Below, piece after piece: positions 31,535 through 52,256 of a stretch of DNA of 64,000 bases. Below the pieces are notes generated by a model, which had not been told where the DNA came from, ran no database searches, and saw only the letters and a program-made list of their open reading frames with translations. The stretch covers positions 62,001-126,000 of the forward strand of contig JABWCL010000002.1 in the NCBI GenBank assembly GCA_013360295.1, in the 5' to 3' direction. Every line of letters starts with the position of its first letter. Position 1 is the stretch's first letter. This stretch comes from Ignavibacteriaceae bacterium (GTDB lineage Bacteria > Bacteroidota > Ignavibacteria > Ignavibacteriales > Ignavibacteriaceae). The translations under genes were made by a program, and so were the position numbers.

Positions 31535-31552
31535 TTAGCTCCCCTTCTTATT

Positions 31553-31588
31553 AAGGCTGTCATAATTCATTTTATGGCAGCCTTTTTA
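31553..31588 (+). terminator. Intrinsic terminator after the porin-like gene
   Basis: AAGGCTGTCAT, 10-base loop, ATGGCAGCCTT (one G-U pair in 11) followed by TTTATTT, 18 bases after the stop. Confidence 0.85.
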
Positions 31589-31862
31589 TTTCTGTTCCCG
31601 TCCTGCCTTTCGTCTTATTTATTTCTCGCCGCATTCACCCTAAATTAAAGTGACACTTAGGACTGTAAATATCTGAAACACCTTATGTTCATTACATAAA
31701 GCCGGGCAACAGGATAATCTTTAACAGGGGAGGAAATATTATCTGCTTCAGACAGCAGGATATTGTCAGGAACATTAGATTGGAAATCCCGGAATTTCAC
31801 CCGGACCATTTGTTATTACTCTTGTTGTTTTCTCTGCGGTTTTATCATAATCAGTGATTTTG

Positions 31863-32200
31863 GAGTACTCCGGTCAAATACATTACTGCCAGGGGTTTAT
31901 CGACTTTGAAGGAAGTTTTTCATACTGAGAAATCGTGTTTGTATTCTACGACGGACATCTTGCACCCGGTCAATTTGAGCTTTCGCAAAATTATCCTAAT
32001 CCGTTCAATCTGTTAACCAATATTTCATTCATCCCCCCGGTTGACTCAAACATTTCATTCAGTGGCCAAGATCTCCGAGAAAAAAACTTGCGGTTATCAA
32101 AGAGGACCGGTTCAGGAGAATGATACTTATTTCAGAGTTTTCTCCGCAAAATTTTTCTTCTGGTATTTAACTATAAGTACTTCATGTATTCCCCTCCGGA
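31863..32200 (+). pseudogene. Decayed C-terminus of a type IX secretion substrate
   Basis: One frame reads QGFIDFEGSFSY, an in-frame TGA at 31926, then EIVFVF...GQFELSQNYPNPFN and ISFIPP. This is the usual order just before and in the T9SS sorting domain of Ignavibacteria surface proteins (YRLKQIDFDGSFSYSNEIE..., then FELSQNYPNPFNPTT). Further on, SPQNFSSGI followed by a stop corresponds to the DASNLSSGVYFY part of the same domain. No intact N-terminal coding region can be seen upstream to 31590. The whole stretch is therefore a relic of a larger gene, with at least one premature stop and a frame loss after about 32060. Confidence 0.65.
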
Positions 32201-32276
32201 AGTAATTCTGTTGAAAAATCGTTCATAAGGAAACTCACACTTGAAAAAGCTGAATTAAAATTTGTCTTTCAAAGGA

Positions 32277-32458
32277 CTGTCTCAACCGGGAGGGTTCTCT
32301 TATTTTATTCAACAAAACGAGGAAAGATATTACATTCACTCATCGACGAATAGCCATATCAATCGACAAAATCTCGATGGGCTCCCGTTCGTCGATAAAT
32401 AAGCCGTTTCGTCGATTAACCATATTCGATAGAAGAGTTTAACCTTAAGTTGAGACAG
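32277..32458. repeat. 182-bp MITE-like element with 10-bp terminal inverted repeats
   Basis: CTGTCTCAAC at 32277-32286 and its exact complement GTTGAGACAG at 32449-32458 bound a non-coding 182-bp segment. Inside, TTCGTCGAT occurs at 32388-32396 and 32408-32416 and in inverted form (ATCGACGAA) at 32342-32350. The ends resemble those I recall for some insertion sequences (GGACTGTCTCAA). I see no target-site duplication and no transposase remnant. It could instead be a structured RNA or a chance inverted repeat. The rest of 31590-32489, apart from the T9SS relic, shows nothing I can support. Confidence 0.4.
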
Positions 32459-32489
32459 CAAATCAAAATAAATACAATTAGGTGTATTG

Positions 32490-32693
32490 ATGGAAAGATT
32501 CTCAAATTCATTTCGGGACTCTCAGTCAAGAACTAATATCACACAGACTGGAGTTAATCGTCCTTATCCCCCGGACAGGAAAACTAAAGGCGAAATATTA
32601 CCAAAAATTATTCCGGGATTAACTCTTGCGATCGGCTTTACTTTCTTATTTTTTATTATTTACTATATTAGTAGATATCTTCCGATGCGGTAA
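32490..32693 (+). CDS. Small single-pass membrane protein
   Basis: 67 residues from ATG 32490, with AGGTG 5 bases upstream. The first 40 residues are polar and Ser/Arg/Pro-rich (RFSNSFRDSQSRTNITQTG); the rest is one membrane helix (IPGLTLAIGFTFLFFIIYYI) with a short basic C-terminus. No family recognised. It stands alone in a gene-poor region. The good ribosome-binding site and the clean helix favour a real gene; the small size keeps confidence moderate. The 268 bases that follow contain no gene I can support, only the candidate promoter at 32903. Confidence 0.5.
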   Translation: MERFSNSFRDSQSRTNITQTGVNRPYPPDRKTKGEILPKIIPGLTLAIGFTFLFFIIYYISRYLPMR

Positions 32694-32902
32694 CGGATTA
32701 CCAGACTTATGCCTGCTTTGATTCAAATGCTCCGGTTCACTAGCTTCGGCAACGAAATAGTCTGACTCCTTATCCCTGTTGATCTGTCTGCAAATCCGTT
32801 CAGCACTGACACTTCCGGCAATAGACAGCCATAAGTTCCGATCTTCTCAGACATAAATTTAATGAGAATTAACCAACATTAACGTTTACTGATTTTGTCA
32901 TA

Positions 32903-32931
32903 TTGACTTTAAATCTTTAAAGGGCTAAATT
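32903..32931 (+). promoter_or_regulatory. Candidate promoter of the caspase-fold/CHASE2 operon
   Basis: TTGACT, a 17-base spacer, then TAAATT, 30 bases before the first start codon of the operon. It fits a sigma-70-type layout (5/6 and 4/6 matches). Housekeeping promoters in this phylum often follow a different consensus, so this is a tentative call. Confidence 0.35.
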
Positions 32932-32961
32932 TAAATATTAAAAAATAATACTGGAACCAAG

Positions 32962-33573
32962 ATGTTGAATCGCGCACTTTCTTTCATTTTGATCTTCTCC
33001 TTCGCTCTGACTTTTATCACAATTAATGCTCAGACAAAAGTCCAGGCAAAACTTGGCATATTATTAAGTTCCGACAATAATAAAATTACCAGGCTAAAGT
33101 CCAAAGACCGGCTGAAACCCGGAGATAAATTCCGGATCTTCGTTCAGCCTCTTTCATCCTCACACGTCTATGTAGTATTCACTGACGATAAAGAGGCTAC
33201 TCTCCTCTCATCAGAAGTTAAAGGTAAAAAATTGCAGAAAGACAAATTGATTATACTCCCTTCTGAAAATGAATTCTATGAATTTGACAATTTATCTACC
33301 AATTGCAAGATTTCGATAATCTGCGAGGCTGATAAAAATGCCCAGATTGAGAAATTGTTTCAGTCCGCTGAAAGCATTCCCAAGGCTAACTGGGTGTCTT
33401 ACGAGGCTGAGATTGCAAAATCCGCTGCTAAGGATCTGAACGACAAATCCGATAAGCCATTCCAGATCGCGGGGAACGTCAGAGCGGCAAATGATGATTT
33501 TCTGAATAAGCTTCAGCTTTATACAGGAAAGGATAAACTGTACAAATCATATGAAGTTGAAATTAAAAAGTAA
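32962..33573 (+). CDS. Exported DUF4384 protein
   Basis: 203 residues. Signal peptide (SFILIFSFALTFITINAQ), then a DUF4384 domain: LKPGDKFRIFVQPLSSSHVYVVFTD, EATLLSS, and LIILPSENEFYEFDN. DUF4384 is a beta-sandwich domain most often found fused to caspase-like (peptidase C14) domains or in their operons, which fits the neighbours here. First gene of a six-gene unit: its end overlaps the start of the CHASE2 cyclase gene by 23 bases, so translation is probably coupled. Predicted periplasmic; the C-terminal 60 residues are helical and charged. Molecular function unknown. Confidence 0.8.
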   Translation: MLNRALSFILIFSFALTFITINAQTKVQAKLGILLSSDNNKITRLKSKDRLKPGDKFRIFVQPLSSSHVYVVFTDDKEATLLSSEVKGKKLQKDKLIILPSENEFYEFDNLSTNCKISIICEADKNAQIEKLFQSAESIPKANWVSYEAEIAKSAAKDLNDKSDKPFQIAGNVRAANDDFLNKLQLYTGKDKLYKSYEVEIKK

Positions 33574-35689
33574 AGGATTACTTCCGAGGCTCTTACTTTA
33601 TAATTCACTCTTAGTTTTATTAGTCTGTTCCCTGCTCTATTTTTTCGGAACGGCGTGGAACAGACTTGACTATCAGGCTCTCGATTTTCTATACCGTTAC
33701 AATATAGATGATCCGGAATTTATCAGGAAGAGTGACGATGTTATTCTTCTTAATGTAACAAGTGAATCCTATAAATACTTCGGCTCGAATATACTAAAAC
33801 GAGAGTCCCTCGCTGAAGTAAATAATGTACTTGCCGAACTCGCCCCCGCCGCGGTGATGTATGATGTTATTTTCCTGGCTGAAGGAGAAGATGAGGGAGA
33901 CCGTTTATTCGAAGAATCTCTGAAGAATCTCGAAAAAATATACCTCCCTGTGGGTATTGAACCCTCGTCTGCACCGGTTAATTTCAGAAAAGGAAACGGT
34001 GACTTTTACCAGAAACTTAATACTGATTACAATTTCAGACCGAAGGAAGTCAATGAAGGCAGTCCTTTCCGGGGAGCCCGCGCGCTCGTTCAGCTTGACC
34101 GATTTAGTACCCTCTCTAGCGGTTCCGGGCATCTTACAGTGGTAGCAGACGCAGACGGCGTGTTCAGGCATATTCCTCTCTTGATTAGGATTGATTCTAC
34201 GCTCTTCCCTTCAATCTCTCTTACAATGTTTCTCGATTACCTCGATGTACCACTGGATTCAGTAATAGTGAACTGGGGAGAGTCAATTACAATTAAGTCC
34301 GGATTATCAAGGTATGTTGACAAAGATATTGTCATCCCGATTGACGTACAGGGCCAGACATACATCCCCTACCCTTCTTACTGGTCAGACTTCCCAAGGA
34401 TGATGGATGCGCACAATCTGATCAAATATTATCAAGATCCGGACATGCAGGGCGACCTTCTGAGTTATTACGAAGGAAAATTTGTGCTGATTGGTGATGT
34501 CTCGGAGGGAATCTCTGATCTTGGACAGACCCAACTTGAGGACAATGTACCTCTTGTACTTATTCACGCTAGCGTTTTGAACGCTTTCCTGAATGATGGT
34601 TTTTTCTCAAAGACACCTGAAATGCTTGTCTTTTTTATCCTGCTTGTTGCAGGATTTTTATTTACCGCATCTTCACTGCTGAAAAGCAATATTCCTTTTT
34701 ATAGTCTGGGCATCCTCTCTGTCATTGTTCTTTTTGCCGTAACAAACCATTTTTTCACTGCCCATCATCTCATCCCGGTTGCCACCCTTTTTATCGGCAT
34801 AACCACGACTTTCCTTGGGACGCTTATCATTCTTCAGATACTCAGCAACCAGGAACAGGTTTTCATTAAAAACGCTTTTTCTAAATATGTACCGGAAAAA
34901 GTCGTGGATAAACTTATTGACAATCCTTCACAACTCCAGTTGGGAGGAGAAGAGAGGCTTGTAACAATTTTATTTTCTGATATAAAGGACTTCACAAAAA
35001 TTTCAGAGGATATCTCCCCTGCAATGCTGGGAAGACTCATTAATGGTTACCTTACTGAGATGACCAGGATAGTGCTGGAACAGGGAGGAATAATAGATAA
35101 ATATATCGGAGACGGAATTCTTGCTGAGTTCGGTGTGCCGCTTTTCACTGATGACCACGCCGAAAAAGCTTTAAGAGCCGCTCTCAAAATGCAGCAGCAG
35201 CTCCCGCACTTAAACGAACGCTGGCAGGCGGAAGGGCTTTCCACGGTATCAGTGAGAATTGGTATAAATACCGGACATGTGATTGCCGGAAATATGGGAT
35301 CGGAACAGGTCTTTGACTATACTGTGCTCGGCGACCCGGTCAATTTAGCCTCGCGTCTCGAAGGCGCCAATAAACTATACGGTTCCAAAATCCTTATCTC
35401 GGAATTTACTCTGGCGTACATTAACAAAAATGATTATATCATCAGGCCCCTTGATAAACTAACGGTAAAAGGTAAATCACAGGCTGTGCTCGTTTATGAA
35501 GTAATCGGGTACGCCTCTGAAAAAATCCCAGCGAAAGATCAGGAATATTATAATCTCTACACGGAAGCTTTTAACCTGTTTATTCAGGGTGATCACACCG
35601 GAAGCGAAAAATTACTCAGACAGATATTAAGCGGCAGGGATGATGATCCTGCTGCTTTGAATTTATTAAAAAAACTCAATCTAACTTAA
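33551..35689 (+). CDS. CHASE2-sensor class III adenylate cyclase (second copy)
   Basis: 712 residues, same architecture as the protein at 23746: N-terminal membrane helix, CHASE2 domain (about 40-345; DFLYRYN at its start), three membrane helices (about 358-435), then a class III cyclase with metal Asp477 (LFSDIKDFTK) and Asp521 (DKYIGDGILAEF), adenine-selecting Lys517, and VNLASRLEGANKLYG. The C-terminal tail is TPR-like (YTEAFNLFIQGDHTGSEKLL). It should turn an extracytoplasmic signal into cytoplasmic cAMP. Translation is probably coupled to the DUF4384 gene by a 23-base overlap; the next gene starts 30 bases on with its own AAGGAGG site. The only operon member without a cleaved export signal. 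Confidence 0.92.
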   Translation: MKLKLKSKGLLPRLLLYNSLLVLLVCSLLYFFGTAWNRLDYQALDFLYRYNIDDPEFIRKSDDVILLNVTSESYKYFGSNILKRESLAEVNNVLAELAPAAVMYDVIFLAEGEDEGDRLFEESLKNLEKIYLPVGIEPSSAPVNFRKGNGDFYQKLNTDYNFRPKEVNEGSPFRGARALVQLDRFSTLSSGSGHLTVVADADGVFRHIPLLIRIDSTLFPSISLTMFLDYLDVPLDSVIVNWGESITIKSGLSRYVDKDIVIPIDVQGQTYIPYPSYWSDFPRMMDAHNLIKYYQDPDMQGDLLSYYEGKFVLIGDVSEGISDLGQTQLEDNVPLVLIHASVLNAFLNDGFFSKTPEMLVFFILLVAGFLFTASSLLKSNIPFYSLGILSVIVLFAVTNHFFTAHHLIPVATLFIGITTTFLGTLIILQILSNQEQVFIKNAFSKYVPEKVVDKLIDNPSQLQLGGEERLVTILFSDIKDFTKISEDISPAMLGRLINGYLTEMTRIVLEQGGIIDKYIGDGILAEFGVPLFTDDHAEKALRAALKMQQQLPHLNERWQAEGLSTVSVRIGINTGHVIAGNMGSEQVFDYTVLGDPVNLASRLEGANKLYGSKILISEFTLAYINKNDYIIRPLDKLTVKGKSQAVLVYEVIGYASEKIPAKDQEYYNLYTEAFNLFIQGDHTGSEKLLRQILSGRDDDPAALNLLKKLNLT

Positions 35690-35719
35690 CTGATCATACA
35701 GTACTTTTAAGGAGGTATT

Positions 35720-37507
35720 ATGTTCGGAACCCGTATGGGGACATTTATATTGTTCCTGGTTCTTACAGTGTTTACTCAGATGCATCTGGCCCAAGAGAGA
35801 ACGCTCAGCATATCCGCTGCGGCTGATTCCCTTCAGGAGTTACTATCCTATGATAATCAACGACCGGATACAAAGAGATTCCTGATTGAAGAGTATATCA
35901 GAAACTCAGAAATTGAAATGGCGCTGCTCGAACTTCTTGATTTTTCTGAAGAGAAGGGATACAACGATGATGTTCACAGGTACAGAGGCGAAATTCTGCT
36001 TGGTGTCGGTAACTTTAAGGGAGCCCTGAAAGAAATAAAAATGAGTTACCTGATGAAGCCTGACAATTCAAAACTGATGAATCTTGCCTTCTCATATTTC
36101 GGTTTGGGCAACGAAGAACTGGCAAAAAAGATATATGATCAGTTGCTTAATCTTTATCCGGGCACCGACTCGGATGCTCTTGTTCTTCATTCGCAGCTCT
36201 ATAAGGGAGGACGTGCAACAGTCACGAATCTGATCCCTTCATTTTATAAGTCCTTTTATCCTGATAAGTACATAAAATATTTCCCGTCTCCGCAGATGAC
36301 TGTCCTCTCTCCGGAGAACAACAGTTCGGTCTTTGGGGAGACTTCTGTATTGTTCTCAGTTAACCACTCGCGTCCTGTAATACTCGTGGAAGTTAATGAT
36401 GAGATACTTTTTTCCTCCTCCGGAGAAGAGAATGAAAGTGAGGCTTTCTCACGCGAGTTCAATCATAAGTTAAACATCCCTGCTGGACCGGTAAAAATCA
36501 CAATTAAAGCGACAGACCTGTATGGCTTTACGGCCAGGACTGATTTGTATCTCCTGGGACTGAACTTTAACCGTGATGCATCGTGGCGAAGCAGTTATTC
36601 CGATTCACTGTACGCGGGCATCTCATTTCTAAACAGCTTCATCCCAAGAGATTTTACAAAGTCGGTAAAGTACGGTAACACAAATATTATTGTATTCAGC
36701 CCGGCAGTGAAAGACTACACTGATTTTCAGAAGGCTGTTTTCTGGTATGATCTGCTGTCGTCAGAGCAGATCGGCGTTACGGACAAAAAGAATATCAAGC
36801 CGATTCTGCTTGAAGATGCGGGTTCCGAGAATTTCAGAAGAGTATATGATGACTGGTTGCTGAAATCTACTAATTTTCAGTCACGCACCCTCGTCTATCT
36901 CAGCAGCCCGATTAGTGTAACAGATAACTCCGTTAGCATCAGGTCTGCCGACGGAAATATGTTTGATATACTTCAGAACATTTCCTCTTCTTTTAGAATA
37001 ATGTCGGATGGTTTATTGATAATATTTGAAGGGGAAACAGATCATCCCGAAAAAGCTGAGGTTATATTCAGTAAGCTGCTTGCGGAAACTCCATTTCCTG
37101 CAGCGATAATCCTTGGTAACCGTGCAGACCTTACTCAGTCTGTCATTAACTCACTGCTCAAACCGGAGGCCGCAGGATTTTCCGAACCAGGGCCTGCAAT
37201 TTTTGATTTCGCTTCTCTATCCACTTCTGATCCTTCAATCAGAATCTTCACTAGTCCGAAGGGAATGCCCGCTATCATTGAGAATCCTTCAGGGAAGGCA
37301 TTGCGCGTGCACCGTGATATGCTGATACTGCTGGAGTCTAAGCTGAAAAACGACAAAGTACTAGCCCCCCAGGCTGATAAAATAAGAACATACTGCTCAG
37401 ACTGGAAAATGTATAACGATATTTCACGTTTTGTAAGGAATGATCTGTCACTCGCAGATTTGTTAATAAAGATTGATGAATATAATTTAAGAACGGGAGG
37501 AAATTAA
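35720..37507 (+). CDS. Exported TPR-Ig protein with degenerate caspase-like domain
   Basis: 595 residues, preceded by AAGGAGG. Signal peptide (1-25), TPR-like helices (30-160), an Ig-like domain (193-281; MTVLSPENNSSVFG to DLYGFTARTDLYLLG), then a C-terminal region (about 320-500) that follows the peptidase C14 strand/helix order: NIIVFSPAVKDYTDFQKAV, NIKPILLEDAGSENFRRVYDDWL (compare LL..EATRENI..AL.WL in caspase-like proteins), TLVYLSSP where the SGHG histidine motif is expected, and LLIIFEGETD where DACYSG is expected. Both catalytic residues are thus missing. If correct it is a pseudoprotease; an unrelated Rossmann-like fold is possible. One base separates it from the next gene. Confidence 0.6.
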   Translation: MFGTRMGTFILFLVLTVFTQMHLAQERTLSISAAADSLQELLSYDNQRPDTKRFLIEEYIRNSEIEMALLELLDFSEEKGYNDDVHRYRGEILLGVGNFKGALKEIKMSYLMKPDNSKLMNLAFSYFGLGNEELAKKIYDQLLNLYPGTDSDALVLHSQLYKGGRATVTNLIPSFYKSFYPDKYIKYFPSPQMTVLSPENNSSVFGETSVLFSVNHSRPVILVEVNDEILFSSSGEENESEAFSREFNHKLNIPAGPVKITIKATDLYGFTARTDLYLLGLNFNRDASWRSSYSDSLYAGISFLNSFIPRDFTKSVKYGNTNIIVFSPAVKDYTDFQKAVFWYDLLSSEQIGVTDKKNIKPILLEDAGSENFRRVYDDWLLKSTNFQSRTLVYLSSPISVTDNSVSIRSADGNMFDILQNISSSFRIMSDGLLIIFEGETDHPEKAEVIFSKLLAETPFPAAIILGNRADLTQSVINSLLKPEAAGFSEPGPAIFDFASLSTSDPSIRIFTSPKGMPAIIENPSGKALRVHRDMLILLESKLKNDKVLAPQADKIRTYCSDWKMYNDISRFVRNDLSLADLLIKIDEYNLRTGGN

Positions 37508-37508
37508 A

Positions 37509-38240
37509 ATGAAAAAATTAGTGATTATCATCTTATTCTTTGCGGCATACTCATTTGCTCAAAACGTGAAGTCGTTCACTGCTTTTAGTTGTGCTTCTAT
37601 CGTCACCAATCAAACCGAATTGTCTCTTAACGAAAAGCTGGTTAATCAGGTCAATGATGCTTTCCTGGAAGCTATGAATAAATCCGGATCATACAGCTTA
37701 AACATCGGAGGGGATAAGTCAAAGAATCCCAAAAACCTTTTCGAGATTTTGCAACTCATTGATTCCAGGGCGGATTCAAATGATCTGGGCATCTATACAA
37801 TCATAGGTGCCTGGCGGCCTATGGGAAATGCTGAGTACAGTTTAACAAATTCAGAAAACCTTTCCGTCACCTTTTCTTACATAATGAATTTTATGAGGAT
37901 AAATCCCGCGAAGAATCAACTTCTGATTCTCTTGATGCCAAAGGGATACACGATACCACCCGGCGCAATAGCACAGAAACCCTCCCCAACTTCGCCGGGA
38001 GTAAACGTTATGTTCATCTCACAGAGCAGCCAGAGCTCGTTCGAAGATCTGGTTTCGGATTATATCTCCGCGATTGAGAGTATAGATAATGGACCTGACT
38101 CAGACCTCAACCGAGACAGAATGATTAACGTGACAGAAATGCTGAAACAAATAGAAAAATCATTAACAGAAGAGAAAATCCGGTTCGAAACTGTACACCT
38201 GGTTTCCGGCCCGGAATTGAATCTCAGGGAGGTTAAGTAA
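37509..38240 (+). CDS. Exported protein with caspase-like C-terminal motifs
   Basis: 243 residues with a signal peptide (MKKLVIIILFFAAYSFAQ). No family is certain. The segment 136-210 (NQLLILLMPKGYTIPPG; NVMFISQSSQSSFED; then DSDLNRDRMINVTEMLKQIE) resembles the end of many bacterial C13/C14 caspase-like proteins, where an S-x-S-x-S strand is followed by a helix and a D-x-N-x-DG-x-(V/I)-T-x-x-E turn. The catalytic His and Cys are not visible. It is packed one base after the previous gene and one base before the vWA gene, so it surely belongs to the same transcript. Likely periplasmic, perhaps a partner of the preceding pseudoprotease. Confidence 0.5.
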   Translation: MKKLVIIILFFAAYSFAQNVKSFTAFSCASIVTNQTELSLNEKLVNQVNDAFLEAMNKSGSYSLNIGGDKSKNPKNLFEILQLIDSRADSNDLGIYTIIGAWRPMGNAEYSLTNSENLSVTFSYIMNFMRINPAKNQLLILLMPKGYTIPPGAIAQKPSPTSPGVNVMFISQSSQSSFEDLVSDYISAIESIDNGPDSDLNRDRMINVTEMLKQIEKSLTEEKIRFETVHLVSGPELNLREVK

Positions 38241-38241
38241 T

Positions 38242-41052
38242 ATGAAAAACTTATTTATAATTTTAATATTTGCGTCTTTAACTGCCGTAATTTTTTCGCA
38301 AAATCAAAGAGCGGTTGTGAAATTAAATGCTCTCGACTTTTCAAGATTTCCGCAAAGTGATTTGTATGTAACCCTGACTGATATGCGCGGAGAAATTCTA
38401 ACACTTGATACAACGGATGTTAACGTCATATCGCTGCAGCAGGACAGGTATAAAATACGTCCGGAGGCGATACAATCGGTCTATGAACTTAAGAAACGGG
38501 GAGAGAGCGAACTATATATAGGTCTTGTCTTCGATAACTCTGAATCTATGTCCCCCAGGATCGGACTCCTTGAAAAAGCCGCGGAACGGTTTGTCGCGGG
38601 GCTCGATAAGGGGGACTTCGCGGCGGTTTTCGACTTCGGAAATGAAACACAAAGAGTCAAGATAAGTGAATTCCAGGAACCGATTTATGCCAGGCAGAGG
38701 CAGGGCTTTAGTTCTTCAAAAGCATTCCTGAACAAAGCGGTAAAAAATAAAAACTTTACCCAGCGAACCTATATGTATGATGCCCTTTTGTACGGGCTAT
38801 CTATGACCAATAAGGTGGAGTCACTTGGTAAAAAAGTTATTGTATTCTTTTCGGACGGAATAAATGTAGGATCAGTCGCTAACCCGGAAACCGTACTGCA
38901 GTACTCGACTGAATATGATATCCCCATTTATGCTATTGACCTTAACACTCGGGAAAACGCGGTACTTAAAAAAATCGCTTCTAATTCCGGAGGAGAATAC
39001 TTCTTTGTAACCAAACCTGAAGATCTGATCTCATTATATGAGTCATTGATAAAGCTACTTAAATCACAATACAGGATAACGTACAATTTCCCGGCTGAAA
39101 TTGTTGATCAGTCCTCATACACCATAAACTTTACCCTCGGCAGTAACTACGTCGGCAGTTCGTCAAAGAACTTCGCTGTTGACGGTGAGAAGATCGGGTA
39201 TTATAATCTTTTATACTATCAGAGCATCGGTAAAGAAGATCTGGCCAATTTCATTAACTTCATTTCTTCTTATCCCCGTTCAAAGTGGAGGGATGACGCC
39301 GAATTACTTCTTGGTAATTACTGGTTCCGCAGAAATGATTTTTCGAGGGCGCTGGCGGTTTATAACAGGATACTCCGCGACACTCTTAATTCAGCGTACT
39401 CCCCTGCCCTTGTCCAGAAGGCAAAGCTTCTCTCTGAGGCTAAACAGATGGAACTCGCGAAAAAGCAGTACAAGGAGATACTCAGGAGGGGTGATAACAG
39501 TGCCGCCCGTCCGAGAGCAATGATTGACCTGGCAAAATCATATTCTTCCGAGGGTAACTACTCGCTTGCTCTTGATACTTACTCTAACCTTATCTCTGAG
39601 TATCAGGGCACTGAGTTCGCGTCCGAGGCGCTCTTACAATCCGCTTCGCTGAGTCTTTCGATGGGTGATTTGGGTAAAGCCAAAACCAATCTGAATGAAC
39701 TCCTGAATAATTATCCGGAGAGTAAAAATTCAGTCTTCGCGAAAATGGAACTCGCGAAACTTGAAGAAAAGAATCAGAATTATCCTCAGGCAATAAGTCT
39801 GTATTCTCAGGTCATTTCATCAAGCCCCTCTGCTGAAATAATGGAGGAAGCAAAATTAAAAATGGCTGATCTTTATTATGAAACCGCCGACTACCCGAAC
39901 GCGGTCAATTCTTATAAAGATCTCGCCTTGACCGCCTCCTCTCCTTCAGTTCGCGAACTGGCACAGATTAAAATGATTCCGGCTATGCTCCTAACCGGCG
40001 CTATCATTCCTGCCCGCGAGGTTTATTCAATGATGCGGCAGGAACTAAAAAACGAATTATTAAAAAATGAGAATAACTATAAAACCAGAGTGGGAGGTAC
40101 GGAAGGAGTTTCCCTTATAAACAGTTCATATGGAACGGGAGCATTAACCGCGGCTGACAAAGTAATTCGAACTTATAATGATGAAGAATTGCGCGCGAAA
40201 TTCCCTGTTATCGGGCCAATGTACCAGATAATTCTTCCTTCCGCGGAAGGGACGATTCCGGAATTATCATTAACGATTGAGAAGGAGTGGGTAAACAGCG
40301 GGCTGCTCACAAATCCGGGCAGCGGTATATACCGGTTGGAGAACACACAGTTCATTCCGGTAGAGACAAAAAAGAATCTCGGCGCGTTAGGATTCGAAGT
40401 TTTAAATGCCTCACCGGGTATCTATGCGGTTTTAACAAAGAAGCCGGAAGTATTTACTCTCTACAACATTAATTTCGATCTCGGTAAAGCTACGATTCGC
40501 AAGGACGCGGAAAAGAATCTCTATCAGGTTATTGACTATATTCGTTATCAGCCTAATTTATTGCTCGAGATTGCAGGACACACCGATTCAACCGGCAGTG
40601 ATGACATTAATTTCACTCTTTCCCTTAACAGGGCGGAAGCTATAAAGAACTTTATGGTTGTCAATGGTGTTGATCCTGCAAGGCTGACTACACGCGGATA
40701 CGGCAGCCAGTTCCCGTTAGCCAATAACGATTCCGAAGAGAACAGGCAAAAGAACAGAAGAACCGAATTTATTGTTCTTGCCGGAAAGTCACTCTCTGAA
40801 ACTGACGATAATGCTGTCTCCAGATACGTCGTATCACTCGGAACGTTCGGCAGTTCAAAAGAAGTTTATGAGAAAAAGGAACTGTATAAAAACTACTTCC
40901 CTTCAGCCTCTGTCCTTATTATCAATAAGGATAATAAGATGAATTACGTCCTCACTCTCGGAATTCACAATTCCGAAAATGAAGCAAAAGAACAGTTAAA
41001 AAAGTTTAACGAAATATTTAACACCGTTAGTGCTGAAATAATTAAATTGTAG
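38242..41052 (+). CDS. vWA-TPR-OmpA-SPOR envelope protein
   Basis: 936 residues, exported (signal MKNLFIILIFASLTAVIFSQ). Order: vWA domain (about 90-270) with an intact MIDAS motif (FDNSESMS: Asp98, Ser100, Ser102) and KVIVFFSDGIN; tetratricopeptide repeats (about 335-600; YPRSKWRDDAELLLGNYWF, NYPESKNSVFAKMELAKLE); an OmpA C-terminal peptidoglycan-binding domain (about 735-850; EIAGHTDSTGSDDIN, LSLNRAEAIKNF, NRRTEF); and a C-terminal SPOR-like domain (about 855-936; YVVSLGTFGSSKEVYEKK). It combines metal-dependent protein binding with two peptidoglycan-binding modules, so it probably anchors the operon's products to the cell wall. Starts one base after the previous gene. Confidence 0.85.
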   Translation: MKNLFIILIFASLTAVIFSQNQRAVVKLNALDFSRFPQSDLYVTLTDMRGEILTLDTTDVNVISLQQDRYKIRPEAIQSVYELKKRGESELYIGLVFDNSESMSPRIGLLEKAAERFVAGLDKGDFAAVFDFGNETQRVKISEFQEPIYARQRQGFSSSKAFLNKAVKNKNFTQRTYMYDALLYGLSMTNKVESLGKKVIVFFSDGINVGSVANPETVLQYSTEYDIPIYAIDLNTRENAVLKKIASNSGGEYFFVTKPEDLISLYESLIKLLKSQYRITYNFPAEIVDQSSYTINFTLGSNYVGSSSKNFAVDGEKIGYYNLLYYQSIGKEDLANFINFISSYPRSKWRDDAELLLGNYWFRRNDFSRALAVYNRILRDTLNSAYSPALVQKAKLLSEAKQMELAKKQYKEILRRGDNSAARPRAMIDLAKSYSSEGNYSLALDTYSNLISEYQGTEFASEALLQSASLSLSMGDLGKAKTNLNELLNNYPESKNSVFAKMELAKLEEKNQNYPQAISLYSQVISSSPSAEIMEEAKLKMADLYYETADYPNAVNSYKDLALTASSPSVRELAQIKMIPAMLLTGAIIPAREVYSMMRQELKNELLKNENNYKTRVGGTEGVSLINSSYGTGALTAADKVIRTYNDEELRAKFPVIGPMYQIILPSAEGTIPELSLTIEKEWVNSGLLTNPGSGIYRLENTQFIPVETKKNLGALGFEVLNASPGIYAVLTKKPEVFTLYNINFDLGKATIRKDAEKNLYQVIDYIRYQPNLLLEIAGHTDSTGSDDINFTLSLNRAEAIKNFMVVNGVDPARLTTRGYGSQFPLANNDSEENRQKNRRTEFIVLAGKSLSETDDNAVSRYVVSLGTFGSSKEVYEKKELYKNYFPSASVLIINKDNKMNYVLTLGIHNSENEAKEQLKKFNEIFNTVSAEIIKL

Positions 41053-41065
41053 AGTCGTGCAAATA

Positions 41066-44000
41066 ATGAAAAAGCTGATCGTCTTTCTTTATATTTTTAC
41101 CGGTATTGCCGCAGCGCAGGACCTGACTCAGCAATGGCAATCCATTGACAGTCTCATAAAAGCCGGCGACTTCACCCGCGCGTCGACGATGTTCCCGTCT
41201 TTTCTTGACGAACTCAAAAAATCCGGGTTGAATGATAAGCTCGTGGCAGGTTATTATCACTATGGTAATACGCTGATACAAACGGGTGAGTATTTAAGAG
41301 CCGATTATGCTTATAATAAGGCAAAAGAAAAAGCAAAAGAAGCCGGACTAGATCAGAACTATGCAGAGCTGACAAGGATTCAGATTACCAGTCTCTACAA
41401 TGCCGTCCGGTCAAATCCGGCAATGCCTGCTTCTACCGTTAACACTCTGCTTAGTAATTGTTTTAATTACGCTAACGAGACAGGCGACCTGCAGCTGATT
41501 AAAAGTGTGCAGCTGCTCCGTATTGAAACCGAAAGAAAAAATGAGAGATACAACTCAGCTTTGTCTCTGGTTCAGCAGCTCATTGGTAAATTGAAGGAAG
41601 GCAAACCCGATGACCCCGACATCAGTAAACTAAATGTTCTTAGCGCTGAACTCAGCCTTAAAGCGGGTAAAACTTCTGCCACGTCTGTAGAAGAACTCTC
41701 CCCGGAACAGTCGGTACAATTGCTGATCTTCGCGGCTGTTGACGCGGAGAAAACCGGCAACCTCCTCAAGGCTTATAATACGCTATCTTCCATTAAGCCC
41801 GATCAGTACCGTGCGCTCAAATGGGATGTCATTTCGGAGATCTCCAAGAAGCGGATGGAACTGGCGGATAAGTTGGACAAAACCGAAGAGATAATTATAA
41901 GCCTCTCAGAAATCCGCAATGACCAGATAAACGATTCCACCGAACTCAATATAGGTATGCTCGAACTTCTGAAACTTATAATTATCGGAAATCTTCAGTT
42001 GGGGTATGTCCAGAAATCATATGACGAAATTACTTTCATTGAAAAAGCGCTCGCTGACAAACGTGTTACTCCTGATTTTTATCCACACTTCTTCAGGATG
42101 AGAGGAGACATTTCGTATCTCCAGGGTGATTTTGATGATGCGATAACTTATTATGAACGAGCTGAAGAAAGCCCCGGAAGCCTGTCTCAGAGGGAATTTT
42201 ACTCCCTGCTTAATAATCTCGGACTCTCTTACTATAAAAATAACAGAAGAAGCGAAAGCATAAAAGCATTTGATAAACTGATTGCATCGGCTGCGGAACA
42301 GCAGTTTATCAGGTTTGCAGTGCAGGCTGATCTGAATGCCGGCATTGTTTTTATGAGAGACGAACTGATGGCGGATGCACTCGCAAGATTTAAGAGAGCA
42401 CAGGAGACCGCGCAGAAAAATAATCTCCTTGAGCTTAATCTCCTCGCGGGGATCAGGATGGCAGAAGTCTACTATAACCAGGGTTTTAATGATTTTGCTT
42501 CCGAAAAATTCCGGGAAGTAAAAACTTTTGTAACACAGGTAAAAGACCCGCAGGAAAAGATCAATATTCTTGCCTCAATCGGGAATTATGAGAGGAGCAG
42601 AGATAATTCAGAACAGGCAATAATTTATTTAAGTCAGGCATACAAACTTGCCACACAGTTTAACCTGACGAATCTAAAACTGTATCTGGCGGGTGAGTTA
42701 GGAGATACCTATCTATTAGCCGGTAACGCAAAGGAAGCAAAAAATCTGTACAATTCATTCCTCCCGCTTGTAAGGAACTCAGGAGATACCTCTGAACTGA
42801 TCAAACTGAATATTAAACTTAGTAAATGTCATTATGTGCTCAGGGAGTATGATCTTGCAAGCCAGATTCTTAAAAACAATCTGAGTATCCTTCGGGAAAC
42901 TGAAGAAGATTACCTGACCGTTAAAGGAAACAACCTGAAAGATATCTATCTTTATACTCTCTCCCTGACCGAACTAGCGTCAAACAACTATTCGTCAGGA
43001 TTATTAAAGAATGATACCCGGCTGATCTTCCTCGCTTACAGGGAAGCCGCCAAAGCAGCCGAATTGAGTAATGACTATTTTGTTACCCAGCTGATCGGCT
43101 CCAAAGATGATGATAATTCGCTTCGTTACCTCGAGACTTACCGGCTGCTTGTTGATATCGCCGTCACTCTTTATCTTCAGACCGGAGACAGTAAGTACCT
43201 CGATAAATCTTTTGAAACCAGCGAACAATCAAGATCCAGGAATTTTATCACTGAAGTGGGGAGCAGCCTGATAGAAAAACTGAATGATAAAGAATTGCAG
43301 CAGGTAACAACATTCTCACGACAACTGAGCTCTGGAGCACAAACTTCTTCCAGGGATCTACTGACTGTGAACGGGTCTTCCGCTGCAGGAGCCGGCCAGG
43401 TTCGCGGAATCAAAGTCATTAAAGACACCACGAAAAGTATTCTTAAACTTCAGAATAAGTATGACGATATACTGAAAGAACTTAAAAAGAATAAGCATAA
43501 GGCCTCCGAACTTGTCTCAATATCAACCCTGACACTGCCTGCAGTACAGCAAATTATTTCGCCTGATCAGGTGATCCTGAATTATTTTGTTTCCAAGGAA
43601 TCGATTTATTTATACTGCATAGAAAAGGATACGATCATACTTGCAATGATCGAGATTGCCGAAGACACACTTCGTGATAATATCCAGGAAGTAAGGAAGC
43701 ATCTCCAAAACCCCTTGGATAAAGAGCATCTCCGGATTTCAGAACTTCTTTATTCCAAACTTATCTCCCCCGTAGACAAAAGAATTAAAGATAAAAAACT
43801 GATAATAATCCCTTCAGGACAGTTAAATAATCTTCCATTCGGCGCTCTCAATAATAATGGACGGTTTCTTGTTGAGGATCATATATTAACCGTACTGCCG
43901 AATCTGAGTTCATTACAATTATTACGGCAGAAACCCCCGGTAACTGTCAGTTCCCCGATGATAGCAATCGGTAACCCTATTAATGATTATACATCACCAT

Positions 44001-44545
44001 TGCCCGGAGCAGAGTCTGAGGTAAAAGCAATACAGGCGATCTTCAAAAATAATAACAGCTTTTTACGTGAGAACGCACAGGAAACATCTGTTAAAAAAGA
44101 AATATCAAAAGGAGAAATTGTACATATTGCCTGCCACGGTTTATTCAATTATGATTATCCCCTGCTTTCCTGCCTTGCTCTCGCGGGAAATAACCAGGAT
44201 GACGGAAGGCTTGAACTTCATGAGATCTATAATCTGAATATGAACAGAACTTCGTTAGTTGTATTATCGGCGTGCGAGACTGCCCTCTCTCAAATAAAAG
44301 ATAATGATGATATGATCGGGCTGGTCAGGGGCTTCCTCTATACGGGGGCATCCTCAGTGATTGCATCACTATGGAAAGTTGATGACGCCGGAACCTATGA
44401 ACTTATGGTTAAATTTTACACCTATTTATCGCAGGGAAATTCCAAAGGCGTGGCGCTGCAGAAAGCGCAGACGGATATGATCCGGTCACCGAATTTCTCA
44501 CATCCGTTTTACTGGTCAGCGTTTGTCCTTAACGGAATGGAATGA
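41066..44545 (+). CDS. Exported TPR-CHAT protease
   Basis: 1159 residues from ATG 41066 (a GTG 9 bases earlier is in frame), with a signal peptide (MKKLIVFLYIFTGIAAAQ). Residues 20-800 are tetratricopeptide-type repeats (DFDDAITYYERAEESPGSL; IKAFDKLIASAAEQQ; ASEKFREVKTFVTQ). The C-terminus (about 840-1159) is a CHAT domain, a caspase-fold cysteine protease: His1024 in HIACHG and Cys1070 in VVLSACETAL are both present, with LPNLSSLQLLRQ, IGNPIND, and VRGFLYTGASSVIASLWKVDD around them. It is the last gene of the operon and the only member with an intact catalytic dyad. Unlike the cytoplasmic TPR-CHAT of Craspase it is exported. Substrate unknown; a neighbouring pseudoprotease is a candidate partner. 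Confidence 0.9.
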   Translation: MKKLIVFLYIFTGIAAAQDLTQQWQSIDSLIKAGDFTRASTMFPSFLDELKKSGLNDKLVAGYYHYGNTLIQTGEYLRADYAYNKAKEKAKEAGLDQNYAELTRIQITSLYNAVRSNPAMPASTVNTLLSNCFNYANETGDLQLIKSVQLLRIETERKNERYNSALSLVQQLIGKLKEGKPDDPDISKLNVLSAELSLKAGKTSATSVEELSPEQSVQLLIFAAVDAEKTGNLLKAYNTLSSIKPDQYRALKWDVISEISKKRMELADKLDKTEEIIISLSEIRNDQINDSTELNIGMLELLKLIIIGNLQLGYVQKSYDEITFIEKALADKRVTPDFYPHFFRMRGDISYLQGDFDDAITYYERAEESPGSLSQREFYSLLNNLGLSYYKNNRRSESIKAFDKLIASAAEQQFIRFAVQADLNAGIVFMRDELMADALARFKRAQETAQKNNLLELNLLAGIRMAEVYYNQGFNDFASEKFREVKTFVTQVKDPQEKINILASIGNYERSRDNSEQAIIYLSQAYKLATQFNLTNLKLYLAGELGDTYLLAGNAKEAKNLYNSFLPLVRNSGDTSELIKLNIKLSKCHYVLREYDLASQILKNNLSILRETEEDYLTVKGNNLKDIYLYTLSLTELASNNYSSGLLKNDTRLIFLAYREAAKAAELSNDYFVTQLIGSKDDDNSLRYLETYRLLVDIAVTLYLQTGDSKYLDKSFETSEQSRSRNFITEVGSSLIEKLNDKELQQVTTFSRQLSSGAQTSSRDLLTVNGSSAAGAGQVRGIKVIKDTTKSILKLQNKYDDILKELKKNKHKASELVSISTLTLPAVQQIISPDQVILNYFVSKESIYLYCIEKDTIILAMIEIAEDTLRDNIQEVRKHLQNPLDKEHLRISELLYSKLISPVDKRIKDKKLIIIPSGQLNNLPFGALNNNGRFLVEDHILTVLPNLSSLQLLRQKPPVTVSSPMIAIGNPINDYTSPLPGAESEVKAIQAIFKNNNSFLRENAQETSVKKEISKGEIVHIACHGLFNYDYPLLSCLALAGNNQDDGRLELHEIYNLNMNRTSLVVLSACETALSQIKDNDDMIGLVRGFLYTGASSVIASLWKVDDAGTYELMVKFYTYLSQGNSKGVALQKAQTDMIRSPNFSHPFYWSAFVLNGME

Positions 44546-46912: not shown

Positions 46913-47602
46913 CTAATTCACTCTTTGATAATACCACTTGAGATTGGTAGGAGCGGCAAGCGTCATATTAAATGTAACAGTATTAGTGGTTTTAGCTGTA
47001 ACTGTGCCAATAACATTATTCCATCCCGCGGCTACTGTAACATTATTTACAACTCTTGTAATATAAGTAGGTGTCGTAGCTCTCGGATCCCAGTCCTCTT
47101 CCTCGGTTTCAGAGCCATTAAGAGTTGTTCTGGCAGTAAAATAAGTTGGCTGATAAATCTGATCATTTACTGTGGGAACCCAAAAAGTATCTGCACGAAA
47201 GTCCCTGTTCATACAGAGTACAAACGCAAAGAAATTACTTCCGTCAAATATCATAAATCCTCCCGCACCATAAACCCTTGCATTTCTGTCAGAGGAAGTA
47301 ATCCCGGCAGGAGCGCCGGAATCTGGACTCTGAATGTAATTCAGATACGATTCGGGAGGGGTTAAAAGTGCAATTGCGAAACTGCCATCAGCAGCAATTG
47401 CGCCTGAACCTACGATCTGATATTCAGTCTGAGTTATATAATTGCCTATCTTGATAGTTTTACCCGCACCGTGCGTCCAGTTCTCCAGTTTTCCTGTGAT
47501 GGTCGTTATTGCCGTATTATCACCGGTACCCGTAGTACTCTCCTCTTCACAGCCAAGGAAAAATAAAAATGAAAATAGAAATAAATATGTTAAGTGTTTC
47601 AT
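46913..47602 (-). CDS. Exported lipoprotein, tandem paralogue B
   Basis: 229 residues with a lipoprotein signal (YLFLFSFLFFLGC) and the header EEESTTGTGDNTAITTITGK. It is the paralogue of the equally long protein encoded 69 bases upstream: both share GKLENWTHGAGKTIKIG / GKLENYTLGSGKIVKLG, DGSFAIALLTPPESYLN / DGSFSLQLNVPQSFMLD, NGSETEEEDWD / NGSETCPEDWD, and the final VVNNVTVAAGWNNV / AVNNVKVTAGWNKI and LKWYYQRVN / LKWYYISFN. Beta-rich, no recognised family. The sandwich-like strand pattern suggests a small surface or ligand-binding protein. Followed by the terminator at 46838. Confidence 0.7.
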   Translation of the reverse strand: MKHLTYLFLFSFLFFLGCEEESTTGTGDNTAITTITGKLENWTHGAGKTIKIGNYITQTEYQIVGSGAIAADGSFAIALLTPPESYLNYIQSPDSGAPAGITSSDRNARVYGAGGFMIFDGSNFFAFVLCMNRDFRADTFWVPTVNDQIYQPTYFTARTTLNGSETEEEDWDPRATTPTYITRVVNNVTVAAGWNNVIGTVTAKTTNTVTFNMTLAAPTNLKWYYQRVN

Positions 47603-47671
47603 AACTGTTCTCTGAGAATTAGTTTATAAAATTTTCTTCTGTGTTTGATAAATATTGTGCTTTAATGATCA

Positions 47672-48361
47672 TTAATTAAAAGATATATAGTACCATTTCA
47701 ATCCGCTTGGTTCAGTTGTTGTAGTGCTATACGTAGCGGTAGTTGACGTTCTGGCAGTGATAGTGGAATAAATTTTATTCCATCCTGCGGTTACTTTAAC
47801 GTTATTTACTGCTCTCGTAACCATCATTTCTTCGCTGCCGTTCCTGTCCCAGTCCTCAGGACACGTTTCAGAACCGTTAATTGTGGTTGCTTTATCGAAA
47901 TAAACCAGTTGGAGCAGTGCATCATTAAGCGCAGGGAGATATAGTGAGTCACCCGAAATATTCCTGTTGATAAGGAGCGCGACACCACGGATTTGAGACC
48001 CCTCATAGATGAAAAGGTTCTGAAACCCGGCAACCATCACGCCCGGGGTCGTTGATGTCATATTGCCAGTGCAGCCGCCTCGCTGAGAGATGAGCGAGTC
48101 AAGCATAAAGGACTGAGGTACATTTAACTGCAGGCTGAAACTACCGTCTGAACCTATTGTCGCCCGGGAAACTTCATCAAAACTGGAAGGGCCATTATAC
48201 CATCCGAGTTTCACTATTTTACCTGAACCAAGGGTATAGTTTTCAAGTTTACCGGAAATTGCAGTGACACCTGCCGGATCACCCGAACCTGTTGTACTTT
48301 CTTCATCACAGCTGACAAAAAGAAGCAACGAAAAAATTAGCAAATACTGAAAAATTTTCAT
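47672..48361 (-). CDS. Exported lipoprotein, tandem paralogue A
   Basis: 229 residues with a lipoprotein signal (FQYLLIFSLLLFVSC) and the header DEESTTGSGDPAGVTAISGK. Same domain as the downstream paralogue at 46913, with conserved positions along the whole length, so the pair arose by tandem duplication. This copy has an extra cysteine pair (QRGGCTG, SETCPED) that the other lacks, which may form a disulfide. Both end in an LKWYY motif. No family name is known to me. The 157 bases upstream separate it from nosY, so it is probably not in the nos transcript. Confidence 0.7.
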   Translation of the reverse strand: MKIFQYLLIFSLLLFVSCDEESTTGSGDPAGVTAISGKLENYTLGSGKIVKLGWYNGPSSFDEVSRATIGSDGSFSLQLNVPQSFMLDSLISQRGGCTGNMTSTTPGVMVAGFQNLFIYEGSQIRGVALLINRNISGDSLYLPALNDALLQLVYFDKATTINGSETCPEDWDRNGSEEMMVTRAVNNVKVTAGWNKIYSTITARTSTTATYSTTTTEPSGLKWYYISFN

Positions 48362-48518: not shown

Positions 48519-49316
48519 TCAGAGTATGAAATCTCTTTTCCTGAAGATTAATTTTGATATGAAGTAAGGCAGGTACGCCCATAGAAGAAGTATAAACTTT
48601 AAGACCAGTGAAGAAAGAAAACTGCCAAGCGACATCTGGTAAATTGCCGCCGTGTAACCCATCAGCGCCGCAATATCAAATTGGAGCAAAAGAAGTATCC
48701 TTCCAACATCAACCGGATTGATTATTGTGATGAACAGTATCAGATTATCAACCGGGTAATCCTTCAGGACATAGGAAATTATCAGGATAGCGATATCATA
48801 AATTATGAAGGTGAATAACCAAAATCCAATGACGAAAAGAAGCCCCTTTGACCGGTCAGAAAAAACAAATGCCGCAAGGAACGCTACCCCGATGAACACC
48901 TGATTCAGTAAGACTGAAGTCCCGAAAAATATCAATAACAGCTCTATCGCGACCTTGTAGGAATGATAATGCAGCACAACAGGCAGCCCAACTCCTATCA
49001 GCATCGTGGCAGTTAATGAAAGAGACAGGCTGAAATATAATCCGTTAAAGATATCTCTTCTCCTGACAGGCTGGGATAATAACAACTCTATAAACGGTTT
49101 TTCATTATTGATAAAAGTAATGCCAAAAAACAAAGAAATGACAGGTATGAATAGCAAAATGAAATTAAAGAGGCTTAAAATTACTTTTTCGCCCTTATCT
49201 TCAAGAAGGAAAAGGCTTTCACAAATCACAAAATAAAAAACCGTGAACAGTATAGTCCATTTCGACCTTGTAAGGTTTTTCAGTTCATACCCGGTTATCT
49301 TGAGCAGTTTACTCAT
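48519..49316 (-). CDS. nosY: NosY-type ABC permease
   Basis: 265 residues with six membrane helices and the ABC-2 permease layout (LKITGYELKNLTRSKWTILF at the start, then ISLFFGITFINNEKPFIELLLSQPVRRRDIF, and RSKGLLFVIGFWLF). NosY is the membrane part of the NosDFY complex needed to mature the copper centres of nitrous oxide reductase. It overlaps the 3' end of nosF by 8 bases, so translation is coupled. Last gene of the nos operon. Identity rests on context as much as on sequence, because ABC-2 permeases diverge strongly. Confidence 0.88.
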   Translation of the reverse strand: MSKLLKITGYELKNLTRSKWTILFTVFYFVICESLFLLEDKGEKVILSLFNFILLFIPVISLFFGITFINNEKPFIELLLSQPVRRRDIFNGLYFSLSLSLTATMLIGVGLPVVLHYHSYKVAIELLLIFFGTSVLLNQVFIGVAFLAAFVFSDRSKGLLFVIGFWLFTFIIYDIAILIISYVLKDYPVDNLILFITIINPVDVGRILLLLQFDIAALMGYTAAIYQMSLGSFLSSLVLKFILLLWAYLPYFISKLIFRKRDFIL

Positions 49317-51245: not shown

Positions 51246-51248
51246 TTC

Positions 51249-52245: not shown

Positions 52246-52256
52246 TTTGTAGAGAC

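Follow-up and report, generated by a model that had tools for sequence, protein, structure and literature searches.

We lean towards reading six tightly packed genes in the genome of an Ignavibacteriaceae bacterium (g1 to g6; Table 1) as an envelope signalling relay that would work through caspase-fold proteins, a judgement that draws on sequence, structural models and conserved gene linkage. The genes lie in the window, by which we mean the whole 64,000-nucleotide stretch analysed. The packing reported by the first-pass annotation was borne out by the plus-strand reading frames: g1 and g2 overlap by 23 bases, and the later gaps from g2 to g6 are 30, 1, 1 and 4 bases. Conservation of this order outside the source genome, a check set beforehand, was found in further genera and also in another family, and because the order recurs in this way the six genes are not chance neighbours. 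By eye, g1, g3, g4, g5 and g6 open with a brief hydrophobic run and then AQ or SQ, resembling a Sec signal peptide, which agrees with the earlier assignment of signal peptides to all but the cyclase; the g4 start fell below threshold in a hydropathy scan for N-terminal hydrophobic stretches. Scans for promoter-like sites (31 found, 28.8 expected) and terminator-like sites (19 found, 11.3 expected, sd 4.2) were left out of the interpretation.

Table 1. Genes and predicted features of the six-gene operon (positions in the window).
Feature	Position	Strand	Description	Basis
g1	32962..33573	+	DUF4384-family protein, signal-like start, 203 aa	ORF
g2	33551..35689	+	CHASE2 transmembrane adenylate cyclase (predicted), 712 aa	Pfam, hydropathy
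CHASE2 domain of g2	33617..34654	+	Predicted extracytoplasmic sensor, aa 23-368	PF05226, 110 bits
Cyclase domain of g2	34961..35485	+	Class III, aa 471-645; D477, K517, D521, N598, R602	PF00211 (Guanylate_cyc), 94.9 bits
g3	35720..37507	+	TPR, Ig-like and predicted pseudocaspase regions, signal-like start, 595 aa	AF2 model, alignments
Pseudocaspase domain of g3	36665..37285	+	Predicted, aa 316-522	VIA-align to metacaspase 4: Z 16.3, rmsd 2.9, 191 aligned
g4	37509..38240	+	Predicted stand-alone pseudocaspase, signal-like start, 243 aa	AF2 model, Foldseek
EF-hand-like loop of g4	38103..38138	+	aa 199-210	Sequence pattern
g5	38242..41052	+	Putative vWA-TPR-OmpA-SPOR-like scaffold, signal-like start, 936 aa	Pfam, alignment
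vWA domain of g5	38521..39036	+	aa 94-265; intact MIDAS-type motif D98-x-S100-x-S102, T176, D205	PF00092
OmpA-type domain of g5	40474..40758	+	Peptidoglycan-binding type, aa 745-839	PF00691, 75.1 bits
SPOR-like domain of g5	40819..41010	+		PF05036, 13.5 bits (cut-off 21)
g6	41057..44545	+	TPR-CHAT protease (probable), signal-like start, 1162 aa	Pfam
CHAT domain of g6	43736..44536	+	aa 894-1160; His1027 and Cys1073 present	PF12770, 252 bits

The g2 protein is probably a membrane sensor that can make cAMP. Its hydropathy profile displays one N-terminal hydrophobic segment and several more at residues 351-432, and the cyclase motifs were retained in all four six-gene copies aligned. The five cyclase residues in Table 1 are presumably catalytic (metal and base contact), and K517 together with T591 is taken here to favour cAMP over cGMP as product. 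Six cNMP-binding places were counted in the source genome. For g1, the DUF4384 label comes from its family: PF14326 matched 13 of 17 members at E<=0.01 (best E 3.9e-16), although the window copy is sub-threshold, with no match at E<=1 in the Pfam scan. All 8 genomes with g3 also carried a g1 family member, compared with 45 of 391 overall (1.7e-8 by chance, ignoring kinship), and we propose g1 as an adaptor for the CHASE2 receptor. Orphan g1 genes were present in three genomes (G073, G075 and G076; L093-L095). Weak g1 matches were found in two genomes of the same order as the window (G089, G113) and, phylum-wide, in 4 of 395 genomes, all four outside the class and in frames of 481-544 aa.

The two middle proteins, g3 and g4, are predicted pseudocaspases, with a caspase fold that lacks the catalytic dyad. 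The fold had been claimed for both and was supported by structure prediction, as each model aligned to solved metacaspases (g3, Table 1; g4 against metacaspase 4, Z 13.4, 180 aligned, rmsd 3.3). The models were built from 7 sequences, that of g4 being of modest confidence (mean pLDDT 63.6, pTM 0.64; g3, mean pLDDT 78.9). Among the Foldseek matches of g4 to the PDB that were listed, 50 of 50 were entries with caspases, MALT1 or metacaspase. Among the structures compared in the g4 structural alignment, 3h11 is presumably cFLIP/caspase-8, where an inactive caspase fold regulates an active one; the likeness is offered as an analogy of working, since that pair is animal and cytoplasmic, whereas the active partner in the operon would be CHAT, not a C14 caspase, and its regulation is a proposal. 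Proof of the fold from sequence only was rejected: when g4 and the caspase region of g3 were searched as profiles, no PDB caspase chain matched at E<=1, and hhalign against the C14 set was weak, with probabilities of 1.8 (g3) and 13.4 (g4). The two profiles scarcely matched each other, Pfam called no domain in g4, and Peptidase_C14 matched neither protein at E<=1. In g3, the TPR match lies below the Pfam cut-off and the Ig-like label is based on a strand-only stretch of the model (192-280). The best sequence link between g4 and C14 caspases is a loop near the C-terminus, whose pattern we take to be that of an EF-hand; it was present in 5 of 7 g4 copies and in all 31 cassette C14 caspases of two other families of the class (f5 and f19, described below), and in none of six C14 proteins encoded within the order to which the window belongs (L072, L081 x2, L082 x2, L091).

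The catalytic His-Gly and Cys were absent from 7/7 copies of g3 and 7/7 of g4, and the alignments held no invariant His or Cys in either caspase region. We therefore rejected g3 and g4 as active proteases; of the several caspase-fold proteins first described, only CHAT is a probable protease. That protein, g6, is probably secreted. Its CHAT domain scored far above the curated cut-off of 24 bits (Table 1), TPR was also called, the dyad motifs ACHG and SACE[TS] were found in all seven copies, and it is the only CHAT match within the source genome. The frame opens with GTG, with a likely ATG start at 41066. In g5, Pfam called VWA, TPR and OmpA, and the residues that we take to match the MIDAS consensus were conserved in 8/8 copies. 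For SPOR, three of the seven copies tested exceeded the cut-off of PF05036 (26.9, 29 and 40.4 bits) and the window copy did not. By its predicted domains, g5 is fit to anchor an assembly on the cell wall.

Mapping of these families across related genomes revealed that the six genes need not occur as one unit, and that the recurring core is the g1-g2 pair. The complete order was found in the window and in three further Ignavibacteriales genomes (L064, L065, L068), and incomplete, split or cut-off versions in five more. One genome (G009) carried g1 and g3-g6 without the cyclase (L033) and a g2 relative on another contig (L071), and in another (G077) the g3-g6 genes stood apart from three copies of g1 and from a CHASE2 cyclase divided between two ORFs (L066, L092). 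In f5 and f19, 31 of 32 g1 loci displayed the order C14 caspase, g1, CHASE2 protein, with a cyclase in 28 of them. The 30 loci measured lay on one strand, with distances of -104 to 272 bases from caspase to g1 and -266 to 167 bases from g1 to CHASE2. The His and Cys motifs (AGHG and DAC[HF]SG) were intact in 31/31 of these caspases, yet secretion is not secured because only 18 of 30 had an N-terminal hydrophobic stretch above the hydropathy threshold. Variant loci comprised g1-g2-CHAT (L063), WD40-C14-g1-g2 (L072), C14 genes with g1-CHASE2-SpoIIE, in which a phosphatase replaces the cyclase (L081, L082), and a C14-g1 pair with no CHASE2 gene after it (L091, G053). A separate FecR-CHASE2 cluster adjoins two CHAT genes in six genomes. 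In a CHASE2 tree containing two long branches, the g1-linked proteins did not form one group and those of f5/f19 branched beside FecR-linked ones; repeated recruitment therefore appears as likely as a single ancestral cassette.

The independent coupling of the g1-g2 pair with other caspases supports the part of the original proposal in which an envelope sensor reports inward, whereas the six genes as its fixed unit did not hold; the cell-wall or damage signal suggested there would be its putative input. In the relay that we favour, g1 and g2 would form a constant adaptor-receptor pair, as their conserved linkage suggests, with interchangeable caspase-fold partners outside (a WD40-C14 caspase, TPR-CHAT or the g3-g6 set) and interchangeable outputs inside (cyclase or SpoIIE phosphatase). 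The six-gene set would be an elaborated branch of this cassette that includes pseudocaspases, CHAT and a vWA-OmpA scaffold. In it, g3 and g4 may be pseudoenzymes that partner CHAT on the g5 scaffold, either sensing a ligand or regulating the protease. Once CHAT is activated, or the complex altered, g1 and CHASE2 would be cleaved or bound, and a cyclase-driven rise in cAMP would reach cNMP-binding regulators.

The direction of signalling could also be reversed, with the CHASE2 cyclase and g1 sensing a small molecule and controlling, via cAMP, the production of caspase-fold envelope proteins for quality control or processing; the proteases would then be co-regulated and would not signal to the cyclase. 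Organization as one tight operon would suit this, as would the naming of CHASE2 as a small-molecule receptor domain (PMC8195603) and the L033 locus, where the cyclase is missing while g1 and g3-g6 remain. The same locus also argues the other way, given that g1, with its signal-like start, overlaps g2 yet stays with g3-g6 when g2 is gone, as expected of a connecting part, and loci with a phosphatase output still keep CHASE2 beside caspases and g1. We consider the reversed direction unlikely.

Less probable still is a defence or programmed-death system resembling Pycsar or Craspase, with CHAT as executioner and the cyclase as alarm. The literature counts CHAT and caspase-like domains among defence effectors (PMC10907252 and the Craspase papers), and PADLOC PycC models matched the g2 cyclase domain (best 84 bits), but the PADLOC matches were all generic (cyclase, OmpA/MotB, TPR) and the protease-fold parts bear signal-like starts. 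Despite the PycC-type match, the Pfam matches listed for the six proteins included no cNMP-binding domain or cNMP-gated effector as in Pycsar, nor an NTPase, nucleic-acid sensor or TIR, and none of 116 pattern matches to g3 in viral contigs was confirmed as a relative. We would place lowest, as very improbable, a machine for outer-membrane assembly or secretion-linked processing with cyclase feedback. Its appeal is that g5 resembles OmpA/TPR parts of envelope machines, although all NCBIfam scores were below cut-off (BamD 65.9, cut-off 81.4; YbgF 89.1, cut-off 90.1) and those for PorE (65.6, cut-off 600) and PorW/SprE (49.9, cut-off 250) far below, and that the gingipain-type sortases of T9SS likewise have a caspase fold. 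None of the six genes is a porin, sortase or T9SS core gene, however, and variants without g5 still join caspases to g1-CHASE2.

Several described systems share parts of the favoured relay. A CHASE2-metacaspase fusion in Trichodesmium erythraeum (PMC3501461, PMC2853523) likewise ties CHASE2 to a caspase homologue, but as a single polypeptide with the caspase domain predicted to be cytoplasmic; PMC3501461 mentions neither cyclase nor DUF4384, and PMC2853523 no adenylate cyclase. Cyanobacterial orthocaspases (PMC7475262) likewise bring together C14 caspase, DUF4384 and WD40, with catalytically mutated homologues among them, but DUF4384 or WD40 is fused within one protein and the available portion describes no linked CHASE2 cyclase. 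WD40 and CHASE2 genes also adjoin in a Nostoc cluster with DUF928 (PMC5587647), though no caspase, DUF4384 or cyclase is named in it. Craspase, in which the type III-E CRISPR protein Csx29 (PMC9729208) combines TPR with a CHAT protease under the control of a partner complex, differs from g6, which has a signal-like start, scored 57.3 bits against the Csx29 model (cut-off 300) and had no gRAMP-like match in a scan of 15 genes from the operon and its surroundings. No described system with the six-gene composition was found in open-licence papers, nor was CHASE2 jointly with a CHAT domain and caspase, or caspase jointly with adenylate cyclase and DUF4384; by title, none of those on Ignavibacteria and caspases was on this subject.

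To our knowledge, little is established about which stimuli bacterial caspase homologues detect or where they pass the signal. The operon may exemplify a general bacterial class of transmembrane signalling, an idea that we hold tentatively, at somewhat short of even confidence. Caspase-fold proteins outside the inner membrane would serve as sensors joined to an unvarying pair of DUF4384 adaptor and CHASE2 receptor, with caspases, pseudocaspases or CHAT interchangeable outside and cAMP or SpoIIE dephosphorylation as outputs inside; the six-gene operon would be the form in which a pseudocaspase pair controls an active CHAT. It would add paired bacterial pseudocaspases next to an active protease of caspase fold, an arrangement familiar from animal cell-death control. 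The simpler cassette, with an intact caspase beside the adaptor and a CHASE2 protein (31/32 loci), offers a small and direct system for asking whether caspase activity outside alters cAMP inside. The composition of the six-gene set suggests that bacteria couple an intracellular signal to caspase-like proteins located beyond the inner membrane.

The six genes, read in the first-pass annotation as an envelope module reporting by cAMP, form a compact operon. They encode a DUF4384-family protein (g1), a CHASE2 adenylate cyclase (g2), a TPR/Ig-like protein with a predicted pseudocaspase region (g3), a stand-alone predicted pseudocaspase (g4), a vWA-TPR-OmpA-SPOR-like protein (g5) and a TPR-CHAT protease (g6). 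Pfam assigned CHASE2 and class III cyclase domains to g2, VWA, TPR and OmpA domains to g5, and TPR and CHAT domains to g6, with a TPR match below the cut-off in g3 and no match in g4. Across the whole genome there are one CHAT, three CHASE2 and six cNMP-binding places, and a single C14 caspase place away from the operon. On contig C29 of this genome, a C14 protein was seen near an ORF with a DUF4384-type match, and a search of that contig for CHASE2 found none. The immediate surroundings of the operon and the other loci discussed here are listed in the table.

Features of the window and of compared loci (L, locus; G, genome)
Feature	Location	Coordinates	Strand	Remarks
Six-gene operon	Window	32962-44545	+	One 23-base overlap; gaps of 30, 1, 1 and 4 bases
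FecR cluster	Window	19394-25989		353 aa (no Pfam match), FecR, 810 aa (no Pfam match), CHASE2 cyclase
Second CHASE2 cyclase	Window	23746-25989		In FecR cluster
Region upstream of g1	Window	31535-32961		1.4 kb without long ORF; in L064 (G054) the gap is about 0.15 kb or less
Short ORF	Window	31935-32123		Resembles tail of decayed T9SS-sorted protein (SQNYPNPFN, by eye)
Two adjoining 229 aa ORFs	Window	46913-48361		Paralogue-like, lipoprotein-like starts (by eye); no Pfam match in either
Nitrous oxide reductase type cluster	Window	48519-54269		Close to operon; nos propeller and NosD (Pfam), ABC ATPase and permease (by eye)
C14 protein near 455 aa ORF	L127 (own genome, C29)	7001-12925		DUF4384-type match in the ORF
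g1-g6, complete and in order	Window, L064 (G054), L065 (G125), L068 (G126)
g1 and g3-g6	L067 (G009)			Cyclase absent
g3-g6	L066 (G077)			g4 recognised by profile
g2-g3-g4-g5	L069 (G053)			g2 truncated by contig end
Different CHAT gene in g6 place, after g5	L069 (G053)	6225-7304	Opposite	Cut by contig end
g5-g6	L070			At contig start
g3	L059 (G450)			At contig end
Three tandem g1 paralogues	L092 (G077)	2471-4373		Upstream of CHASE2 cyclase split over two ORFs
g1-g2-TPR-CHAT	L063 (G125)			In addition to the six-gene form of G125
WD40-C14-g1-g2	L072 (G052)			First part of WD40 region interrupted
C14-g1	L091 (G053)			CHASE2 absent
C14 proteins, g1, CHASE2-SpoIIE protein	L081, L082 (G044, G048)			g1 of L081 in two ORFs
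Additional g1-g2 pair	L079 (G068)			Short contig
g1 without such partners	L093-L095 (G073, G075, G076)
Further g2-like CHASE2 cyclase	L074 (G125)	4889-10928		Preceded by three genes: one CsgG-like, one unassigned, one with a weak transglutaminase-like match

Sequence profiles alone did not reveal the caspase fold of g3 and g4. AlphaFold2 models built on seven-row alignments gave a mean pLDDT of 78.9 for g3 and 63.6 for g4 (pTM 0.64). All of the best 50 Foldseek matches listed for the g4 model were entries with caspases, MALT1 or metacaspase, headed by MALT1 (E 6.8e-8), and matches to the g3 model mixed TPR structures with MALT1. A second structure aligner superposed both proteins on metacaspase 4, g3 over residues 319-527 (Z 16.3, 191 aligned, rmsd 2.9) and g4 over residues 22-232 (Z 13.4, 180 aligned, rmsd 3.3); its MALT1 matches to g3 spanned residues 316-521. 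With the register judged by eye, using the alignment together with the model's strands, both the catalytic His and the catalytic Cys are missing from 7/7 g3 and 7/7 g4 copies, and the alignments hold no invariant His or Cys in the caspase region of either protein. As modelled, g3 and g4 are two pseudocaspases. Elsewhere in the operon, motifs were retained: ACHG and SACE[TS] in all seven g6 copies, the cyclase Asp, Lys, Asn and Arg in 4/4 g2 copies of the six-gene form, and a MIDAS-type motif with the OmpA pattern N-x-x-L-S-x-x-R-A in 8/8 g5 copies.

Gene 3 served as the marker for an operon census. Within Ignavibacteriales, it matched 16/164 genomes at E<=0.001; seven matches were long (the window's own genome, G054, G125, G126, G077, G009 and G053) and the remaining nine genomes gave short matches only, of E 5e-7 or weaker. 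A g3 profile at E<=1e-8 recovered eight of the 391 genomes of the class Ignavibacteria, the eighth being G450. The vWA part of g5 was found at seven loci in named genomes, all titled as MAGs of Ignavibacteriales, Ignavibacteriaceae or Melioribacteraceae, although distant relatives may be missed because the scan requires exact short patterns. Six of these loci probably belong to g3 genomes and L070 is additional. Relatives of g2 lie on other contigs in G009 (L071) and G077 (L092), and the three g1 copies of G077 are likewise on another contig than its g3-g6. A g1 family member is present in 8/8 g3 genomes, against 45/391 genomes of the class (chance 1.7e-8, ignoring kinship).

The 45 genomes matched by the g1 profile were all inspected at their g1 loci. 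Thirteen belong to the window's order, where g1 keeps varied company: the six-gene form accounts for four, and a papain-DUF4384 protein was found at L082. The other 32 belong to two families outside the order (f5 and f19), and in 31 of them a C14 caspase ORF directly precedes g1 and a CHASE2 ORF directly follows it on the same strand. One such three-gene cassette spans 7089-12245 of L096. Distances in 30/31 loci, with start codons uncurated, were -104 to 272 bases from caspase to g1 and -266 to 167 from g1 to CHASE2. The exception, G458 (L105, L131), carries g1 and a CHASE2 cyclase, and a search there for a caspase was negative. A cyclase domain is at least partly present in 28/31 cassettes; at L097, L103 and L112 the contig stops ahead of it. 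At L128 a 459 aa ORF is followed by a separate ORF for the caspase region, and two ORFs share the CHASE2 cyclase. A phylum-wide g1 search at E<=1e-6 matched 20/395 genomes, 16 in the class and four outside it with weak scores.

The motifs AGHG and DAC[HF]SG are intact in 31/31 cassette caspases from f5 and f19. All seven examined with Pfam combine WD40 repeats with a Peptidase_C14 domain at the C-terminus; among the best 25 families at most that were listed for each, Glucodextran_B, an Ig-like middle part, appeared for L109 only. An N-terminal hydrophobic stretch exceeded the hydropathy threshold in 18/30 caspases, and several under the threshold had an N-terminus that was signal-like by eye. 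An EF-hand-like loop lies near the C-terminus in 31/31 of the cassette caspases and was absent from 6/6 C14 proteins tested from the window's own order. Such a loop, of the pattern D-x-[ND]-x-[DN]-x-x-[IVLA]-x-x-x-E, is also present in five of seven g4 copies, where it lies 45-47 residues before the C-terminus.

The FecR cluster recurs in six related genomes (L039, L044, L083, L085, L129, L130), divergent from two adjoining TPR-CHAT genes; in the window there is no CHAT beside it. Taken with the g1-linked form, this shows that CHASE2 cyclases and CHAT proteins occur together in two contexts in this group. In an unrooted tree of 46 CHASE2 proteins, those linked to FecR formed one group and two SpoIIE proteins another, and the f5/f19 receptors branched next to the FecR group, not next to g2. 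One old cassette with later swaps, and a history in which g1 recruited CHASE2 receptors more than once, are about equally likely.

Each domain is already known on its own, and so, in general terms, is a link between CHASE2 and caspases. A CHASE2-metacaspase fusion with a caspase domain predicted to be intracellular is on record from one cyanobacterium (PMC3501461, PMC2853523), DUF4384 and WD40 are known accessory domains of cyanobacterial caspase homologues (PMC7475262), and Craspase is a known instance of TPR-CHAT (PMC9729208). In the part of the literature covered, we found no description that joins a DUF4384 protein and a CHASE2 cyclase to a caspase-fold protein located outside the inner membrane, nor of this arrangement as such.

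Architecture, modelled folds, residues and linkage were observed, and a relay is the most likely reading of them. The constant parts of the loci, g1 (presumably outside) and the membrane-spanning CHASE2, would provide a constant function; the presumably external caspase-fold proteins and the cyclase or SpoIIE inside, being the variable parts, would provide input and output, respectively. In the six-gene form, g3 and g4 may control or guide CHAT on a wall-located g5 scaffold, and CHAT, or the whole complex, would alter g1 and CHASE2 and thereby raise cAMP.
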